Assembly: GCA_020832495.1 (NCBI GenBank)
Contig: JAFIEP010000113.1
Coordinates: 1 to 50,268 of the forward strand
DNA length: 50,268 bases
Direction: 5' to 3'
Source: Acidimicrobiia bacterium
Lineage (GTDB): Bacteria; Actinomycetota; Acidimicrobiia; Acidimicrobiales; Acidimicrobilacustridaceae
Shown here piece by piece: positions 13,785 to 41,533 of this stretch. The position numbers and the translations under genes were made by a program. Each line of letters begins with the position of its first letter. Positions within the stretch are counted from its first letter, which is position 1. Below the pieces are notes generated by a model, which saw only the letters and a program-made list of their open reading frames with translations, searched no databases and was not told the origin of the DNA.

Positions 13785-13863
13785 AGCCTGTATGTCGAGG
13801 CGGCGTAGGTGACGAAAAGCTGCACGTGACGAACGAGCCCGCTATATTGCGCCCTCGTTGCCT

Positions 13864-21515: not shown

Positions 21516-21560
21516 ACTGCGCGCAACCACCCACCGATCCGGTGGCCCACTGCGCGCAGT
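21516..21560. repeat. Palindromic intergenic element, type A copy 1
   Basis: 45 bp. The ends are ACTGCGCGCA (21516-21525) and TGCGCGCAGT (21551-21560), an exact 10-bp inverted repeat. An inner CCACCGATCCGGTGG pairs on itself. It lies between the methyltransferase-DUF952 gene and the fumarate reductase operon. Confidence 0.85.
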
Positions 21561-21587: not shown

Positions 21588-21632
21588 ACTGCGCGCAACC
21601 ACCCGCCGATCCGGTGGCCCACTGCGCGCAGT
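21588..21632. repeat. Palindromic intergenic element, type A copy 2
   Basis: 45 bp, differing from copy 1 at a single base in the inner arm (CCGCCGAT instead of CCACCGAT). It lies 72 bp further on in the same orientation, so the two copies form a small tandem pair. Confidence 0.85.
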
Positions 21633-21718
21633 TGCCACACTCGCTCGGCGACCTCGGCTCACCGGCGACGAAAGAACCGCGGGTACCGTGGGGCTGCACG
21701 CACCGACCGGAGGGCGAC

Positions 21719-22351
21719 GTGAGGATCGAGATCGACGGCAGGAAGATCACCGCCGCCGACGGCACCACGCTCCTCGGCGCCTGGCTCGCTGCCGGTCATC
21801 CGCTCGTCGACCACGTCGGGTGTATGGGCCAAGGGGTGTGCGGCGCCTGCCGGGTGCTTGTCCGTCGTGCCGGACAGGACGAGGCGACCACCGAGCTGGC
21901 CTGTGTCACCCGGGCCGAGGACGGGCTGCAGGCCGCCTTCCTCGACGACACCACCCCGCACCGGGCCCACCCCTACCACCTCGACCCGACCCACGACTCG
22001 TGGGACGCCCACGGTCGGGTGACCGAGGTGTTCCCCGAGGCCCCGTCCTGCCGCCACTGCGACGGGTGCAACAACGCCTGCCCGGTCGACCTCGAGGTCC
22101 ACGAGGGTGTGGTTGCCGCCGTCGCTGGTGATCTGGTGGCCGCCGCCGGCCGTTTCGAGGACTGCGTCATGTGCGACCTGTGCACCACCGCCTGTCCCGA
22201 GCACATCGCCCCCAACCACCTGGGGCTGTTCCTGCGGCGCATGACCACCAGCCTGTCGCTGCGTCCCGACGACCTCCTCCGTCGACTGCACGAGATCGAG
22301 CGCGGCCACATGACGATCGACGTGCACGCCTCCGTCGAGGAACGCGGGTGA
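21719..22351 (+). CDS. Fumarate reductase/succinate dehydrogenase-like iron-sulfur protein
   Basis: 210 aa from GTG 21719, with GGAGGGCGAC in front. An N-terminal ferredoxin-like domain has C35, C41, C44 and C62 for a [2Fe-2S] cluster (GCMGQGVCGAC). Two later sets, C111-x2-C-x2-C-x3-CP and C149-x2-C-x2-C-x3-CP, each fit a [4Fe-4S] cluster. Usual SdhB/FrdB has one [3Fe-4S] in place of the last; here both are complete four-Cys sets. No membrane segment is present. It is the first gene of three and should wire electrons between the NuoF-like and flavoprotein subunits. Confidence 0.85.
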   Translation: MRIEIDGRKITAADGTTLLGAWLAAGHPLVDHVGCMGQGVCGACRVLVRRAGQDEATTELACVTRAEDGLQAAFLDDTTPHRAHPYHLDPTHDSWDAHGRVTEVFPEAPSCRHCDGCNNACPVDLEVHEGVVAAVAGDLVAAAGRFEDCVMCDLCTTACPEHIAPNHLGLFLRRMTTSLSLRPDDLLRRLHEIERGHMTIDVHASVEERG

Positions 22352-22355
22352 CCCT

Positions 22356-23975
22356 GTGACGTCGGCCGGGATCCCCTACGAGCACGCTGTCGAGGCCTGG
22401 CGCGCCGCCGCGCCCGCTCCGCCACGATCCCTCGACGTCCCCGCAGCCGACGTGCTGGCTGCCCACCATCCGGACCACCAGGCACACGGCACGACAACGC
22501 TCCGCGTCGGCGCAAACGCCGGCGACCGCTGTCCGAGCGTGCTCGCCGACCTGCTCGAGTCGGCGTCGCTGGTGGATGACGTGGACATCGCCGGTACCGC
22601 CGTGGCCGACACCGACGTCGTGGTGGTCGGCGGTGGAGGTGCCGGCTGCGCCGCCGCCCTCACCGCTGCGGACCAGGGTGCGCGGGTGCTCGTGCTCAAC
22701 AAGCTTCGCCTGGGCGACTCCAACACCGTCATGGCCGAGGGCGGGATCCAAGCCGCTGTCGCACCTGAGGACAGCCTGCAGCGCCACTTCGCCGACACCG
22801 TCCGCGCCGGCCACCTGGCGGGATCGCGGGACCTGGTGGCCGCCATGGTGCACGACGGACCTGACGTAATCCGCTGGCTCATCCAGCTCGGGGTCACGTT
22901 CGACACCGTGGCCGGCGACGCCGGCGAGGTCCTGATGGCCCGGGGGCGCGCCGGCGGCACCACGGTGCCCCGCATCCTGTCGTGTCGGGATCACACCGGG
23001 CTCGAGATCATGCGCTCGCTGCGCGAGGCGGTGGCGCTGCACCCGGGCATCGTCGTGCGCGACCACGCGCCGGTCGTCGAGTTGCTCACCGACACCCACG
23101 GCCGCTGCACCGGGGCGGTCGTGGTCGACCTCGTGAGCAACGCGGTCCAGCTGGTGCGGGCCAACGCCGTGCTGCTCACCACCGGCGGCGCCGGCCGGCT
23201 GTACGTCGGCTCGTTCCCGTCGTCCAACCACTACGGCGCCACCGCCGACGGGCTCGTCCTCGCCTACCGGGCCGGGGCGCGCCTGGTCGACGTCGACTCG
23301 TTCCAGTACCACCCGACGGGGCTGGCCTGGCCGTCGGCGCTGGTGGGCCAGCTCATCACCGAGGCGGCTCGCGGTGCGGGGGCACTGCTCGTGAACGGCC
23401 ACGGCGAGCGGTTCGTCGACGAAGTGGCCCCTCGTGACGTGGTGGCCGCCGCCATGCTGCGAGAGATGGCCGACGGTCGTGCCGTCGAGCGCGACGGCCA
23501 GGTGGGTCTCCTGCTCGACGTCCCGTCGCTGGTGGCCGACCAGCCCGAGATCCTCACCGATCGGCTGGTCACCCTGGCCAAGCTGGCCGCTCGGGCGGGC
23601 GTCGATCCCACCGCCGAGCCGCTCATGGTGCGGCCCACGCTCCACTACCAGAACGGCGGCGTGGTGATCGACGAGCACGGCGCCACCGGCGTGGCCGGGC
23701 TGTGGTGTGCGGGTGAGGTGGCCGGGGGCATCCACGGCCGGAACCGGGTGATGGGCAACGCGCTGCTCGACATCTTGGCCTTCGGCCGCCGGGCCGGGCG
23801 GGCTGCTGCCCACGCTGCCGGGGAGCGGATCCGTCGACCGGTGGGCCTCCATCATCTGCAGCAGTGGCAGCGCGGGTTGGTGGACGCCGGGTTGCCTCTC
23901 GACCGACGGGCCCCGCTGCTGTTCCCGCCCGAGAGCAACGTCACCCCTGACGACGTCATGGCACGGTGCCGATGA
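22356..23975 (+). CDS. Fumarate reductase/succinate dehydrogenase-type flavoprotein
   Basis: 539 aa, GTG start 4 bp after the previous stop. The FAD motif is VVVVGGGGAGCAAALTAA (residues about 88-105). Fumarate-site residues are all present: H319 in FQYHPTG, R360 in VAPRDVV, H430 in RPTLHYQNGG and R464 in HGRNRVMGNALLDILAFG. The residue that usually binds FAD covalently (His in SHTVAAQGG) is Asn123 here (SNTVMAEGG), so FAD is probably non-covalent, as in L-aspartate oxidase. The ~80-residue N-terminal extension is unfamiliar. Fumarate reduction, succinate oxidation or action on a related acid are all possible. Confidence 0.85.
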   Translation: MTSAGIPYEHAVEAWRAAAPAPPRSLDVPAADVLAAHHPDHQAHGTTTLRVGANAGDRCPSVLADLLESASLVDDVDIAGTAVADTDVVVVGGGGAGCAAALTAADQGARVLVLNKLRLGDSNTVMAEGGIQAAVAPEDSLQRHFADTVRAGHLAGSRDLVAAMVHDGPDVIRWLIQLGVTFDTVAGDAGEVLMARGRAGGTTVPRILSCRDHTGLEIMRSLREAVALHPGIVVRDHAPVVELLTDTHGRCTGAVVVDLVSNAVQLVRANAVLLTTGGAGRLYVGSFPSSNHYGATADGLVLAYRAGARLVDVDSFQYHPTGLAWPSALVGQLITEAARGAGALLVNGHGERFVDEVAPRDVVAAAMLREMADGRAVERDGQVGLLLDVPSLVADQPEILTDRLVTLAKLAARAGVDPTAEPLMVRPTLHYQNGGVVIDEHGATGVAGLWCAGEVAGGIHGRNRVMGNALLDILAFGRRAGRAAAHAAGERIRRPVGLHHLQQWQRGLVDAGLPLDRRAPLLFPPESNVTPDDVMARCR

Positions 23976-24039
23976 GCTGCTGCCGCCGAGAAGCGCTGGG
24001 TCGATCGTCCTCGGCCGGTCCGCGTGGCGGAGGTCGCCG

Positions 24040-25302
24040 ATGACCCACATCGGCGGCTCGCCGCGCCTGTTGACGGCGCTCGACACCCTGGTCGGCGTGG
24101 ACCTCGACGCGTGGCTGGCCGGCCCTGGCGGCGCCGCGCTCACCGCCGCGGTGGCCGATCCTGCGGCGGCGCGGGAAGCGGTTCGCCTGGCCGACCTGCG
24201 GGGAATGGGCGGCGCTGCCTTCCCCACCGCCCGCAAGTGGGACGCAGTGGCGGCGGCCACGGTGCCCGCCGGCGAACGGTGGGTGATCGCCAACGGCAAC
24301 GAGGACGAGCCCGGGACGTTCAAGGACCGGGTGCTGCTCGAACACGCCCCACACCTCATCATCGAGGGGGCGCTGGCGGCGGCGGCCTGCTGCGGCGCCG
24401 CCAACGTGGTGCTGTACGTGAACCCCCGCCACGCTGGCGTAGAGGCTGCGATCGCCGAAGCGGTGGCGCAGTGGCGGGACCATCACCTCCTCGATGAACT
24501 CGAACGAGTGCTGGGCGAGCCGGTACGCCTGCGGGTGCACGCCAGCTCCGGCCTCTACGTCGGCGGTGAGGACACGGCGGCCATTGCGTCGGTGGAGGGC
24601 GGGTTCCCCTTCCCTCGCCGCAAGCCGCCCTACCCGACGACCCACGGTGTCGAGGGCATGCCCACCGTGGTGAACAACGTCGAGACGCTGGCCCAGGCCG
24701 CGGTGCTCCTGCGGCTCGGGGCGCCGGCCTACCGAGATCTCGGTGTCGGCGAGGCCTCGGGCACCCGGCTGTACTCGCTGTCGGGCGACGTCATCCGCCC
24801 CGGTCTCTACGAGCTGCCATCGGGCACCTCGCTGCGCTCGCTCGTGTTCGACCACGGCGGCGGGATGCTGGCCGACCGGAGCTTCAAGGCGGTGTTCACC
24901 GGCGGGCCGTCGAACACGCTGCTGGCGACCGACGGGCTGGACGTGGCCCTCGACCCCGATTCGGTGGTGGCCGCCGGGTCGCGCCTGGGGACCGGGGCCA
25001 TGATCGTCATCAGCGAAGGGACGAGCATCACCCGCAAGGTGGCCGAGTACATCGATTTCTTCGCCGGTGCCTCGTGTGGGCCCTGCCCACCGTGTCGGAC
25101 CGGCACCCACCAGCTGTCGCAGATCCTGCACCGCATCGACACCGGGCACGGCACGCCCGCCGATCTGGACACGCTCCGCAGCCTCACCGCCCTACTGCCC
25201 GGGAGCGGCAACTGCGGGCTGGTGGATGCGGCGGCCACCGTGGTGGCCAGTGCGCTCGAGCGCTTCCCCCACGAGTTCGAACGCCAGGTCCACCACCGCT
25301 GA
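24040..25302 (+). CDS. NuoF-like NADH:acceptor oxidoreductase subunit (FMN, [4Fe-4S])
   Basis: 420 aa. The FMN/NADH fold shows LRGMGGAAFPTARKW, NGNEDEPGTFKDR, GLYVGGEDTAAIASVEGG and PRRKPPYPTTHGVEGMPTVVNNVETLA. The cluster site is C346-x2-C349-x2-C352 and C392 (N3-type [4Fe-4S]). It is 65 bp downstream of the flavoprotein gene in the same direction and lacks NuoE/NuoG partners. With its neighbours it likely passes electrons from NADH to the iron-sulfur protein. In the FMN loop, Arg of the usual GRGGAGFP is Met. ATG 24040 has only a weak ribosome site. Confidence 0.88.
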   Translation: MTHIGGSPRLLTALDTLVGVDLDAWLAGPGGAALTAAVADPAAAREAVRLADLRGMGGAAFPTARKWDAVAAATVPAGERWVIANGNEDEPGTFKDRVLLEHAPHLIIEGALAAAACCGAANVVLYVNPRHAGVEAAIAEAVAQWRDHHLLDELERVLGEPVRLRVHASSGLYVGGEDTAAIASVEGGFPFPRRKPPYPTTHGVEGMPTVVNNVETLAQAAVLLRLGAPAYRDLGVGEASGTRLYSLSGDVIRPGLYELPSGTSLRSLVFDHGGGMLADRSFKAVFTGGPSNTLLATDGLDVALDPDSVVAAGSRLGTGAMIVISEGTSITRKVAEYIDFFAGASCGPCPPCRTGTHQLSQILHRIDTGHGTPADLDTLRSLTALLPGSGNCGLVDAAATVVASALERFPHEFERQVHHR

Positions 25303-25350: not shown

Positions 25351-25400
25351 CTGCGCGCAACCAGGTACCAAACCGGTACACCAGCGCACACAGAACCCCG
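25351..25400. repeat. Intergenic element, type B copy 1
   Basis: 50 bp starting CTGCGCGCAACCAG and ending GCACACAGAACCCCG, with an inner GTACC/GGTAC inverted repeat. It differs from the copy at 26546 at 5 of 50 positions. It lies 48 bp after the NuoF-like gene. Confidence 0.8.
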
Positions 25401-26545: not shown

Positions 26546-26595
26546 CTGCGCGCAACCAGATACCCATGCGGTACACCACCGCACACAGAACCCCG
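26546..26595. repeat. Intergenic element, type B copy 2
   Basis: 50 bp in the same orientation as the copy at 25351 and 45/50 identical to it. Sixteen bp later, a right half of type A begins, forming a composite element. Confidence 0.8.
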
Positions 26596-33968: not shown

Positions 33969-34012
33969 ACTGCGCGCAACCAACCACCGAAACGGTGGCC
34001 CACTGCGCGCAG
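33969..34012. repeat. Palindromic intergenic element, type A copy 3
   Basis: 44 bp with ACTGCGCGCA at the left end and CACTGCGCGCAG at the right, and inner CCACCGAAACGGTGG. It lies just after the metal operon. Confidence 0.85.
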
Positions 34013-39539: not shown

Positions 39540-40925
39540 GTGACCACGACTGCGTTCACCTTGGCCGGCGGCGGCACCAAGGGCGCCTTCGAGGTGGGGG
39601 CGATCGACCATCTCGTCCGCCACCGGGGCCTCGCCCCGTCGGTGATCACCGCGGCGTCGGCCGGATCGATCATCGGCACCGTGCTGGCCCAGGGCCGCAC
39701 GCCCGACGAGTTCGCCGCCCTGGCGGAACAACTCCGGGCCGACCTGCTGGCCATGAGCGACGTCGACATGGTGTTCGGTCGCCAGCCGTGGCTGACCGAC
39801 CTGGCCGACACCCCGTTCGGCGCGCAGGTCGAGGCCCTCATCGCTCGCCGTCCAGCGCTGCCCGCCAGCGCCGACCCCACGGTGGCCGCCGCGCTCGACG
39901 TGGCCACCGCCGACCGCAGCCATCACCGTCACCGCGGGCTGCACGCGCTCGGCGCTGTGGTGACCCACGCCGGAGCCTTGCACCACGCCAGCCGAGACCT
40001 CCCCGGACACGCCACCTCCATCCTCACCCTCGACCCGCTGGGCCAGGCGCTGCGGGGTGGCACCGACAGCGGCATCGCCCCCATCGACCCCCAGCTCGTC
40101 GCCCGCCCGGGCCTGGAACTACGACTGGCGGTCACCGCGCTGCGCTCCGGGGTCACCCGCTACGTCACCGGGACCGGCACCGTGGTGGAAGCCGACGCCC
40201 GCACCCCCTGCACCACGCACCCTGCGCCGGTCGACCTGGTGGAGGCCGTACTCACCTCCTCGAGTGCGCCCATCGCCTTCCCACCCCGACAGTGGGACGA
40301 CGAGCCCTACAACGACGGCGGCATCGCCCAGAACGTGCCGGTCGACGCCGCTGCCGCGCTCGGCGTGGACCAGGTGGTGGCCGTGTTGGCCATGCCACTG
40401 CACGTCGAGGACCCCACCGATTTCGTCACGTCGTCGCTGCTCACCGTAAACCTGCGCACGTCGATGATCATGTTCCTGGCCCAACAACGCGCCTCGCTGG
40501 CCACCCCGCGAGCTGATGGCGTGGCGGTACGGGCGGTGGTGCCCACCGTCGACGTGGTGGGTGCGTTCGAGGTGAACCCGGGGCTGTTGCGCATCGACAT
40601 GGACTACGGCTGGCTGCGCGCCGAGGAGACCATGGCCGACCTCGACGACGGCGACCGGGCCGCCGCCATGGCGGCCACCGATACCGCCATCACCGCCCGC
40701 GACCACGCCTGGCACCTCGAGCAGGCCGCATGGGACGGCGGCCTCGAGGGCGCCGAGCGGCAGGCGGTGCTCGACGCCGCCCGACGGTGCAAGGAGGCGG
40801 TGGGCGAGGCAGTAGCTCGACGCGCCGCGCTCGGGCTCACCACGCCACCCGGAGCCGACGCCTGGGCCACCGGGTGGGAGTCGCACGAGGGCACAGCCCC
40901 CGACGACCTGCCCGACCATCCCTGA
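39540..40925 (+). CDS. Patatin-like phospholipase
   Basis: 461 aa from GTG 39540. LAGGGTKGAFEVGAIDHL is the oxyanion/Gly-rich loop, TAASAGSIIG carries the putative catalytic Ser, and YNDGGIAQNVPVDAA the catalytic Asp (D-G-G). Note that the elbow is A-x-S-x-G rather than the usual G-x-S-x-G. The C-terminal 150 residues are helical. It likely cleaves acyl esters from lipids in the cytoplasm. There is no signal peptide. It lies 88 bp after the esterase-SLH gene. Confidence 0.88.
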   Translation: MTTTAFTLAGGGTKGAFEVGAIDHLVRHRGLAPSVITAASAGSIIGTVLAQGRTPDEFAALAEQLRADLLAMSDVDMVFGRQPWLTDLADTPFGAQVEALIARRPALPASADPTVAAALDVATADRSHHRHRGLHALGAVVTHAGALHHASRDLPGHATSILTLDPLGQALRGGTDSGIAPIDPQLVARPGLELRLAVTALRSGVTRYVTGTGTVVEADARTPCTTHPAPVDLVEAVLTSSSAPIAFPPRQWDDEPYNDGGIAQNVPVDAAAALGVDQVVAVLAMPLHVEDPTDFVTSSLLTVNLRTSMIMFLAQQRASLATPRADGVAVRAVVPTVDVVGAFEVNPGLLRIDMDYGWLRAEETMADLDDGDRAAAMAATDTAITARDHAWHLEQAAWDGGLEGAERQAVLDAARRCKEAVGEAVARRAALGLTTPPGADAWATGWESHEGTAPDDLPDHP

Positions 40926-40947
40926 GGCCACCCCCGACCCCTGCACC

Positions 40948-40975
40948 GGGTCCGCCGGAGGCGACCGCCGGACCC
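40948..40975 (+). terminator. Hairpin after the phospholipase gene
   Basis: GGGTCCG (40948-40954) pairs with CGGACCC (40969-40975); 7 bp, 14-nt loop, about 22 nt after the stop. It is a weak terminator candidate. Confidence 0.4.
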
Positions 40976-41012
40976 TGGTCAGCCCGCCCGTCGGACGAGA
41001 CAGCAACACGCT

Positions 41013-41059
41013 CTGTGTGCGCTGGGGGACCGGATCGGTGCCTGACTGCACGCAGAACC
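41013..41059. repeat. Diverged type B element, reverse orientation
   Basis: Begins CTGTGTGCGC and ends GCACGCAGAACC. Read in reverse it follows type B copies base by base with roughly a quarter of positions changed (for example ACCGGATCGGT for ACCGCATGGGT). It is the only copy seen in this orientation. Confidence 0.55.
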
Positions 41060-41083
41060 GACCCCGGTGCGGCTGGGGCGACG

Positions 41084-41533
41084 TCAGTTGTCGGGGAGCG
41101 GCGCCACGTCCTCGGGCGGGAGATCCCCGTCGAACACCGGGCAGTCCATGGTGAAGCCGGCGCCGACACCGCCGTGGAACTCGGCCACCTCGCCGTCGTC
41201 GGTCTCGAAGCGCAGTTCGGTCTCGCTCTCGGCCACCATGGTGCCCTGGTGGGTGGAGCCGGGCGTCCAGTCCGAGGGGAACTCGCGGCTGCGGTACTCG
41301 GCGTCGCCCTGGCGGTACCAGATCTCCCAGCAACCCTCCTCCACCGTGAGGGTCACCTCCCACTCCTCGCCGGGACTCGGGGCATCGCCGTCGTCGCCGT
41401 TGACGTCGTCGCCTGGAGCCTCCACGGTGGTGGTCGAGCCCTCCTCCACATCCTCGCCGGCGTCGGCACACGACACCAACCCACCCACGAGCAGCAGGGC
41501 CGCGGCAGCGGTCACAACACTGCGTCGAAACAT
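41084..41533 (-). CDS. Lipoprotein of unknown function
   Basis: 149 aa from ATG 41533, with GAGGACC upstream. The signal peptide and lipobox are clear (SVVTAAAALLLVGGLVSC). An acidic spacer (DAGEDVEEGSTTTVEAPGDDVNGDDGD) follows. The folded part has two cysteines (EEGCWEIWYRQGDAEYR; FTMDCPVFDGD). I see no known family. It should sit on the outer face of the membrane. Confidence 0.75.
   Translation of the reverse strand: MFRRSVVTAAAALLLVGGLVSCADAGEDVEEGSTTTVEAPGDDVNGDDGDAPSPGEEWEVTLTVEEGCWEIWYRQGDAEYRSREFPSDWTPGSTHQGTMVAESETELRFETDDGEVAEFHGGVGAGFTMDCPVFDGDLPPEDVAPLPDN

Follow-up and report, generated by a model that had tools for sequence, protein, structure and literature searches.

A predicted soluble NADH:fumarate oxidoreductase encoded by three adjacent genes

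We analyzed a 50,268-nt stretch of the genome of an Acidimicrobiia bacterium (contig JAFIEP010000113.1; hereafter, the window), in which three adjacent genes at positions 21,719–25,302, referred to here as the trio, encode an iron-sulfur (Fe-S) protein, a flavoprotein and a NuoF-like protein. Taken together, the cofactor motifs, active-site residues, conserved gene order and dicarboxylate-related neighborhoods described below point to a single soluble three-subunit NADH:fumarate oxidoreductase, a reading to which we assign a probability of about 75%. From these features we infer that the subunits associate, as well as the electron order and the reaction and its direction. In the proposed scheme, FMN on the NuoF-like subunit would accept a hydride from NADH, and single electrons would then pass via the [4Fe-4S] cluster of this subunit to the two [4Fe-4S] clusters and one [2Fe-2S] cluster of the Fe-S subunit, and then to the non-covalently bound FAD of the flavoprotein, which would reduce fumarate to succinate. 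The net outcome would be regeneration of NAD+ without involvement of quinone and without ion pumping.

All three genes lie on the + strand, separated by gaps of 4 and 64 bp; a previous sequence-only reading of this locus had the shared direction and the first gap right but gave the second gap as 65 bp. The Fe-S subunit (21719..22351, 210 amino acids (aa), GTG start) is preceded by a likely ribosome-binding site, GGAGGG, read from the sequence at 21709..21714 on the + strand, four bases 5’ of the GTG. Alignment places the ligands of its N-terminal [2Fe-2S] domain at C35, C41, C44 and C62, with C-x5-C-x2-C spacing (21821..21904), followed by two C-x2-C-x2-C-x3-C-P sets (C111–C121, 22049..22081; C149–C159, 22163..22195). 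In Pfam, Fer2_4, Fer2 and Fer4_17 score above the cut-off for this protein, with further 4Fe-4S dicluster models just below. All 12 cluster cysteines are kept in 87/87 aligned family members (including two of the pair type, introduced below), which bears out the composition of one [2Fe-2S] and two complete [4Fe-4S] sets read previously from the sequence.

The second gene (22356..23975, GTG start) encodes a 539-aa flavoprotein of the FrdA/NadB/TfrA superfamily (Pfam FAD_binding_2, 242 bits), the predicted fumarate-reducing subunit. The third (24040..25302, ATG start) encodes a 420-aa subunit with a Complex1_51K FMN/NADH-binding domain (24181..24696) and an NADH_4Fe-4S domain (25039..25284; N3-type cluster, C346, C349, C352 and C392 by alignment), both above the Pfam cut-off, and an SLBB domain just below it, in agreement with its earlier description as a NuoF-like NADH/FMN subunit; no NuoE gene lies nearby. 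The highest 19-residue Kyte-Doolittle means of the three proteins are 1.31, 1.46 and 1.83, the usual line for a membrane helix being 1.6. The 1.83 stretch (residues 106–124 of the NuoF-like protein) falls within the Complex1_51K domain, known from other proteins to be soluble. Thus, the Kyte-Doolittle profiles of the three proteins reveal no hydrophobic helix outside a soluble-type domain, as had been claimed, and the trio includes no anchor gene. A scan for promoters and terminators detected neither.

The trio is conserved as a unit, mostly in Proteobacteria

Searching plasmids with the flavoprotein (tblastn) returned copies with 58–60% identity from Cupriavidus, Paraburkholderia, Caballeronia and Pseudoroseomonas, together with one at 44% from Ilyobacter polytropus; eight plasmid records cover at least 80% of the flavoprotein, and five of these were analyzed. 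The Pseudoroseomonas record, the one annotated trio record examined, lists the same three genes in the same order, as a 4Fe-4S dicluster protein, an FAD-binding protein and an NADH-ubiquinone oxidoreductase-F domain protein, and thus does not name the function of the trio.

We then used two narrow peptide patterns derived from the Fe-S alignment to scan 84,980 species genomes and kept the best 80 of 112 relatives, which, together with four plasmid loci (L023, L024, L026 and L027), make up a set of 84 trio loci. All three genes, always in the same order, are present in 81 of these loci, and the other three (L044, L082, L099) stop at a contig edge. Adjacency in a constant order across so many related loci indicates that the arrangement is not a matter of chance, and the possibility raised along with the initial prediction, that the neighbors might not be conserved together, is contradicted. 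Among the 81, several copies are damaged or cut, namely, L063 and L065 (short reading frames), L084 (short Fe-S frame) and L055 (contig end), and in L054 the flavoprotein match is limited to residues 1–249. The loci come nearly all from Proteobacteria, including Cupriavidus, Paraburkholderia, Caballeronia, Variovorax, relatives of Roseomonas, Azospirillum, Xanthobacter, Azorhizobium, Neisseria, Alysiella, Pseudomonas, Halotalea, Stenotrophomonas and Propionivibrio, to which two metagenome-assembled genomes (MAGs) of Propionibacteriaceae are added. In the flavoprotein tree that includes SdhA and TfrA-like rows, the sequences from these two MAGs (L055, L065) nest with Roseomonas mucosa, and that of L055 does so again in the tree without these rows, reflecting either recent transfer or MAG contamination.

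The flavoprotein active site points to fumarate

Residues H319, R339, H430 and R464 of the flavoprotein (span 23310..23747, + strand) align with H232, R287, H355 and R390 of E. coli FrdA, the active-site residues that bind and protonate fumarate. Each is kept in 82–84 of the 86 aligned flavoproteins, the remainder being gaps and one deviating row, so the presence of all four fumarate-site residues, noted from the sequence beforehand, holds across the family. These residues alone are not diagnostic for fumarate because L-aspartate oxidase (NadB) has all four, and a NadB-like role of the complex, as an L-aspartate oxidase or an aspartate:NAD+ enzyme serving NAD synthesis, has to be considered, given also that the NadB model TIGR00551 scores 296.7 bits on the flavoprotein. 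This score is, however, below the cut-off of 452.75, whereas the host separately encodes a genuine NadB (485 bits, above the cut-off), as well as SdhA (961 bits against a cut-off of 541). Moreover, 86/86 aligned flavoproteins have A, P, G or C at the position of the NadB-specific glutamate (the aspartate-binding E121 of E. coli NadB), and the HPTA motif of NadB reads HPTG in 85/86 (one gap), whereas 11/11 NadB-type sequences, three of which are confirmed as NadB by model, keep both the glutamate and the alanine. We therefore consider an aspartate-oxidizing enzyme very improbable. The host has two NadB copies, both on contig C50 (27176–28333, - strand, and 40038–41195, + strand), which may be one gene because this contig resembles a long inverted duplication or an assembly palindrome; it also carries CTGCGCGCAACCA-type repeats (see below) at 13836 (+) and 54503 (-).

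The position of the histidine that binds FAD covalently in SdhA and FrdA is occupied by asparagine (N123, 22722..22724, + strand, by alignment) in 86/86 flavoproteins. E. coli FrdA deprived of this histidine reportedly retains fumarate reduction but loses succinate oxidation; by analogy, N123 would favor fumarate reduction over succinate oxidation. In a structural model of the flavoprotein (predicted local distance difference test score (pLDDT) 84, predicted template modeling score (pTM) 0.86), the PDB match with the lowest Foldseek E-value is E. coli FrdA (template modeling score (TM) 0.60). All three trio proteins stay below the cut-offs of the NCBIfam equivalogs shown, the best match of the flavoprotein being TfrA (326.5 bits against a cut-off of 718). 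The flavoprotein differs from the NadB, SdhA and TfrA-like proteins compared at both ends, with an N-terminus about 80 residues longer and only 48–68 residues after the FAD domain, as opposed to 129–208; one truncated row was excluded from this comparison, and some start codons are uncertain. Together with the gene context described below, the active-site residues make fumarate a well-supported candidate substrate.

Dicarboxylate context and points of doubt

Genes for DASS symporters lie within 1.5 kb of the trio in 45/84 loci, and 46 loci have one at any distance within the locus (tblastn, at least 100 bits); two of these neighboring symporters were scored by model and both exceed the TIGR00785 cut-off. 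Given that 50 matches to PF00939 are spread over the roughly 94 Mb of 15 host genomes or records, chance would be expected to produce well below one such case, an estimate that treats the loci as independent although related loci are not. DctA is found in seven loci and a class I fumarase, in fused form, in six, all in Neisseriaceae. Overall, DASS, DctA or fumarase is present in 49/84 loci. Two-component regulators near 8–10 trio loci are not identified as DctB/DctD-like by models and are not counted as support.

This context leaves room for a complex with the same electron path that acts as an NADH-dependent reductase or dehydrogenase of another di- or tricarboxylate, such as maleate, mesaconate or cis-aconitate/tricarballylate. 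FAD_binding_2 enzymes act on several enoates, and DASS carriers transport citrate, too; genes for TctC tricarboxylate receptors occur in 10/84 loci (one within 1.5 kb), and 35/84 loci, several of them short, show none of DASS, DctA or fumarase. Conversely, all four FrdA-type residues and the HPTG motif are conserved, fumarase and DctA accompany the trio in the Neisseriaceae and seven loci, respectively, as described above, and a sister pair of genes occupies the fumarate/succinate slot directly before sucCD (see below). Thus, although another acid is the foremost competing possibility, we regard it as unlikely. A flavoprotein with a different substrate had been named as an outcome that would undermine the original prediction; instead, the active-site residues, the DASS neighbors, the fumarase of the Neisseriaceae and the position of the sister pair point to fumarate. 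With neither the conservation nor the substrate checks refuting it, the prediction of an NADH:fumarate oxidoreductase is supported.

Several observations weigh against it. Apart from the 35 loci without DASS, DctA or fumarase, no dicarboxylate transporter gene adjoins the trio in the window; the host does carry one good DASS gene elsewhere in the genome. No NuoE match was found near any of the 84 trio loci using the NuoE of the host as the query, a search for which the locus of the query was the sole positive control; the host's only PF01257 (NuoE) gene is on contig C45, adjoining the NuoF gene of complex I. The trio-type Fe-S protein is uncommon: among 398 genomes sampled from the phylum of a Cupriavidus (G450), G450 itself provides the only strong match. 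The structural model of the Fe-S subunit is moderately confident (pLDDT 81, pTM 0.55), and its weak matches favor NuoG/HoxU-type proteins over FrdB. Finally, FNR-like sites (at most one mismatch, at most 400 bp upstream) are rare, being present in 4/87 loci (L066, L083, L086, L089; three of the four in Neisseriaceae), compared with 1.45 expected and a maximum of three in 20 shuffles, and a low-oxygen role finds little support in these upstream sequences.

The NuoF-like and Fe-S subunits

The NuoF-like protein appears distinct from NuoF of complex I. It scores 264.6 bits with the NuoF equivalog NF010120, below the cut-off of 389, in comparison with 428 bits for the complex I NuoF of the host. 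A second model, TIGR01959 (328 bits, cut-off 558.65), does not discriminate because the complex I NuoF of the host (532 bits) misses this cut-off as well. The closest PDB relatives of the 420-aa protein are subunits of Nfn/Stn/Hyd-type enzymes, and it aligns to the inner parts of these longer chains. Known relatives of this subunit work with a NuoE-like partner. The host encodes a third NuoF-like gene, with 34% identity to that of the trio, at C102:57478-58008 (L130).

The Fe-S subunit plausibly bridges the flavoprotein and NuoF-like sides. The weak fold matches of its model (TM 0.26–0.28) are StnA/NfnA, NuoG and HoxU-type subunits, that is, subunits that dock to NuoF homologs; by sequence, FrdB, too, is a match to the N-terminal part, alongside many ferredoxins. 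With matches this weak, the fold does not fix the order of the clusters, and judging from the model, the [2Fe-2S] cluster may adjoin FAD, as in FrdB, or the NuoF-like subunit, as in NuoG.

The same core with other putative electron inputs

In the same 398-genome sample, 29 further genomes hold a weaker relative of the Fe-S protein (99–131 bits; loci L147–L175). A flavoprotein relative follows the Fe-S gene in 27/29 of these pair loci; L168 is cut by the contig end, and in L156 the flavoprotein was not seen in the mere ~0.4 kb of sequence left. The pair sits directly before sucC in tricarboxylic acid (TCA) cycle gene clusters, with sucC within 1 kb in 25/29 loci, then sucD in 24 and 2-oxoacid:ferredoxin oxidoreductase in 23. 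Of the four loci without sucC, L156 and L168 end first, and L157 and L161 extend about 0.6 kb and 1.3 kb past the flavoprotein, respectively. In one locus, L147, the order is AcnB-Mdh-FumA-FumB-FeS-FAD-SucC-SucD-Kor, starting with aconitase B, malate dehydrogenase and the fumarase alpha and beta subunits; monomeric isocitrate dehydrogenase is also in the cluster in seven of the pair loci. From this position before sucC, the sister pair would fill the fumarate/succinate step. In the seven loci first compared, identity to the window proteins is 29–32% for the Fe-S protein and 43–46% for the flavoprotein. All 27 sister flavoproteins retain N123 and the four active-site residues, with T321 replaced by Ser in two of them and a gap in the A199 column.

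No NuoF relative was detected in the 29 pair loci. On this basis, it could be argued that no single complex exists, the NuoF-like protein being a separate diaphorase and the Fe-S/flavoprotein pair being fed by ferredoxin or another carrier, in line with the location of most pair loci near 2-oxoacid:ferredoxin oxidoreductase. The strict adjacency of the NuoF-like gene in 81/84 trio loci, across many families, makes this improbable for the trio.

A different setting is found in Ilyobacter, where a pair homologous to that of the window (flavoprotein 44%, Fe-S 33%) neighbors genes whose annotations are HdrB-like, 4Fe-4S, HdrA-like, hydrogenase Fe-S subunit, 4Fe-4S (two further proteins) and FAD/NAD-binding protein; an aspartate ammonia-lyase gene precedes this cluster, and a gene of the aspartate aminotransferase family follows it. 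Locus L022, from genome G330 of the window's phylum, also holds an Ilyobacter-type pair, with MvhD-like and Flx/Fe-S-type genes upstream. The Ilyobacter locus resembles the succinate operon described for Pseudoclostridium thermosuccinogenes, in which a two-gene fumarate reductase lies beside NADH-oxidizing Flx-Hdr genes and fumarase and electron bifurcation has been proposed (PMC7282089, with reference to a 2019 preprint by Koendjbiharie and van Kranenburg); judging from the gene order, homology between the P. thermosuccinogenes genes and the window pair is likely. In tubeworm symbionts and Thioflavicoccus, TfrAB genes have likewise been described as intermingled with flx-hdr and kor genes (PMC6315080).

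These parallels, along with the kinship of the NuoF-like subunit with Nfn/Stn/Hyd-type proteins, raise the question of whether the trio, too, encodes an enzyme that bifurcates electrons, with the oxidation of NADH driving reduction of both fumarate and ferredoxin. The proposed input in P. thermosuccinogenes, however, is a bifurcating Flx-Hdr complex (PMC7282089), whereas in the trio it would be a single NuoF-like subunit, only 420 aa long and matching just the inner parts of the longer chains. No NuoE/HydC-like partner was found in the 84 trio loci, and the seven Ilyobacter Hdr/Flx-type proteins have no relative there at an E-value of 1e-6, with the Ilyobacter locus itself as the positive control. 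Bifurcation by the trio thus seems improbable, if less so than a separate diaphorase.

In phylogenetic trees, the flavoproteins of the trio, Ilyobacter and TCA types group in a single clade to the exclusion of NadB (support 100/100), and those of the trio and Ilyobacter types are likewise united (100/99) in a tree that includes SdhA and TfrA-like rows. The flavoprotein/Fe-S pair would then represent a soluble fumarate-reductase core, for which the NuoF-like protein is the putative input module in the trio, whereas elsewhere the same core would be served by Flx-Hdr-type genes or has no input found beside it. We lean toward a modular family of soluble fumarate reductases with one core and at least three electron inputs, namely, NuoF-like, Flx-Hdr-type and an unlinked, perhaps ferredoxin-based input in TCA clusters; under this scenario, the NuoF version would be an undescribed quinone-free NADH sink that spread horizontally through Proteobacteria, including Neisseria, and into the lineage of the window.

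Origin of the trio in the window’s lineage

In the window's own order, 1/397 genomes, that of the window, has the trio, which points to horizontal acquisition as the likely origin. The search across Actinobacteria suggested along with the sequence-only reading would have yielded little: within the phylum, the Fe-S protein is found in 2/396 genomes, the window genome and one with the pair type. Among the best flavoprotein matches from the same order (37–45%), the four scored by model are aspartate oxidases (L108, L012 and L009) or TfrA-like (L016), not orthologs. In the trees, the window copy is on its own branch beside the proteobacterial trios, outside any single donor family. When long-branched SdhA and TfrA-like rows are included, the trio flavoproteins do not form one group, with that of the window outside (98/86); without these rows, they do (100/99).

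A flanking gene, glutamate-dehydrogenase-like by eye, has 59–61% matches in four genomes of the same order, with a best match of 51% in the window's own family, and is matched in 11/21 genomes, the window's own included. These matches fit a contig that belongs to the lineage and speak, if weakly, against contamination.

The trio is flanked on both sides by a repeat (CTGCGCGCAACCA...CGGT...CCA), with five mismatch-free copies in the window, all outside the trio genes, at 21517–21549, 21589–21621, 25351–25383, 26546–26578 and 33970–34002. The repeat is often in tandem, with a spacing of about 70 bp, and genome-wide, 57 copies with at most two mismatches were found (46 forward and 11 reverse as the contigs lie), compared with none for the reversed control.

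Relation to known systems and implications

The open-licence literature searched contains no enzyme with exactly these three subunits, in keeping with the remark in the sequence-only reading that no such characterized complex was known. Soluble NADH-dependent fumarate reductase activity as such is already known. The fumarate reductase of Hydrogenobacter thermophilus TK-6 reportedly has five subunits encoded at scattered loci, unlike the three adjacent genes of the trio, the two being compared here by description. Going by the title of its report, the Hydrogenobacter enzyme shares with the predicted trio product solubility, the use of NADH and fumarate reduction (Miura et al. 2008, J Bacteriol 190:7170, cited in PMC12743299).

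The thiol:fumarate reductase TfrAB of methanogens is similar in that TfrA is the best NCBIfam match of the flavoprotein and an Fe-S partner is present, but apart from the flavoprotein falling well below the TfrA cut-off, the Fe-S protein scores 17.9 bits against the TfrB cut-off of 385. TfrB has an HdrB-like half, for which the 210-aa Fe-S subunit is too short. With complex II, that is, quinol:fumarate reductase (QFR) and succinate:quinone reductase (SQR), the trio shares the flavoprotein fold and the four active-site residues, but it lacks a membrane anchor subunit and the covalent-FAD histidine, and its second 4Fe-4S set is complete, whereas FrdB carries a [3Fe-4S] cluster in that place. NADH diaphorase modules (NuoEFG, HoxFU, HydB) include the same family of FMN/NADH subunits, and the Fe-S model is weakly NuoG/HoxU-like; the trio differs from these in having no detected NuoE and in that its output would be a fumarate-reductase flavoprotein.

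If the proposed function is correct, members of Burkholderiales, relatives of Roseomonas and Neisseriaceae would be able to transfer electrons directly from NADH to fumarate, bypassing the respiratory chain. Such a route would be relevant to redox balancing, succinate secretion and dicarboxylate exchange, and the trio is a potential compact NADH-driven succinate-forming enzyme. More generally, these findings suggest that one fumarate-reductase core has been wired to several electron donors, which would make it a clean case for module swapping.

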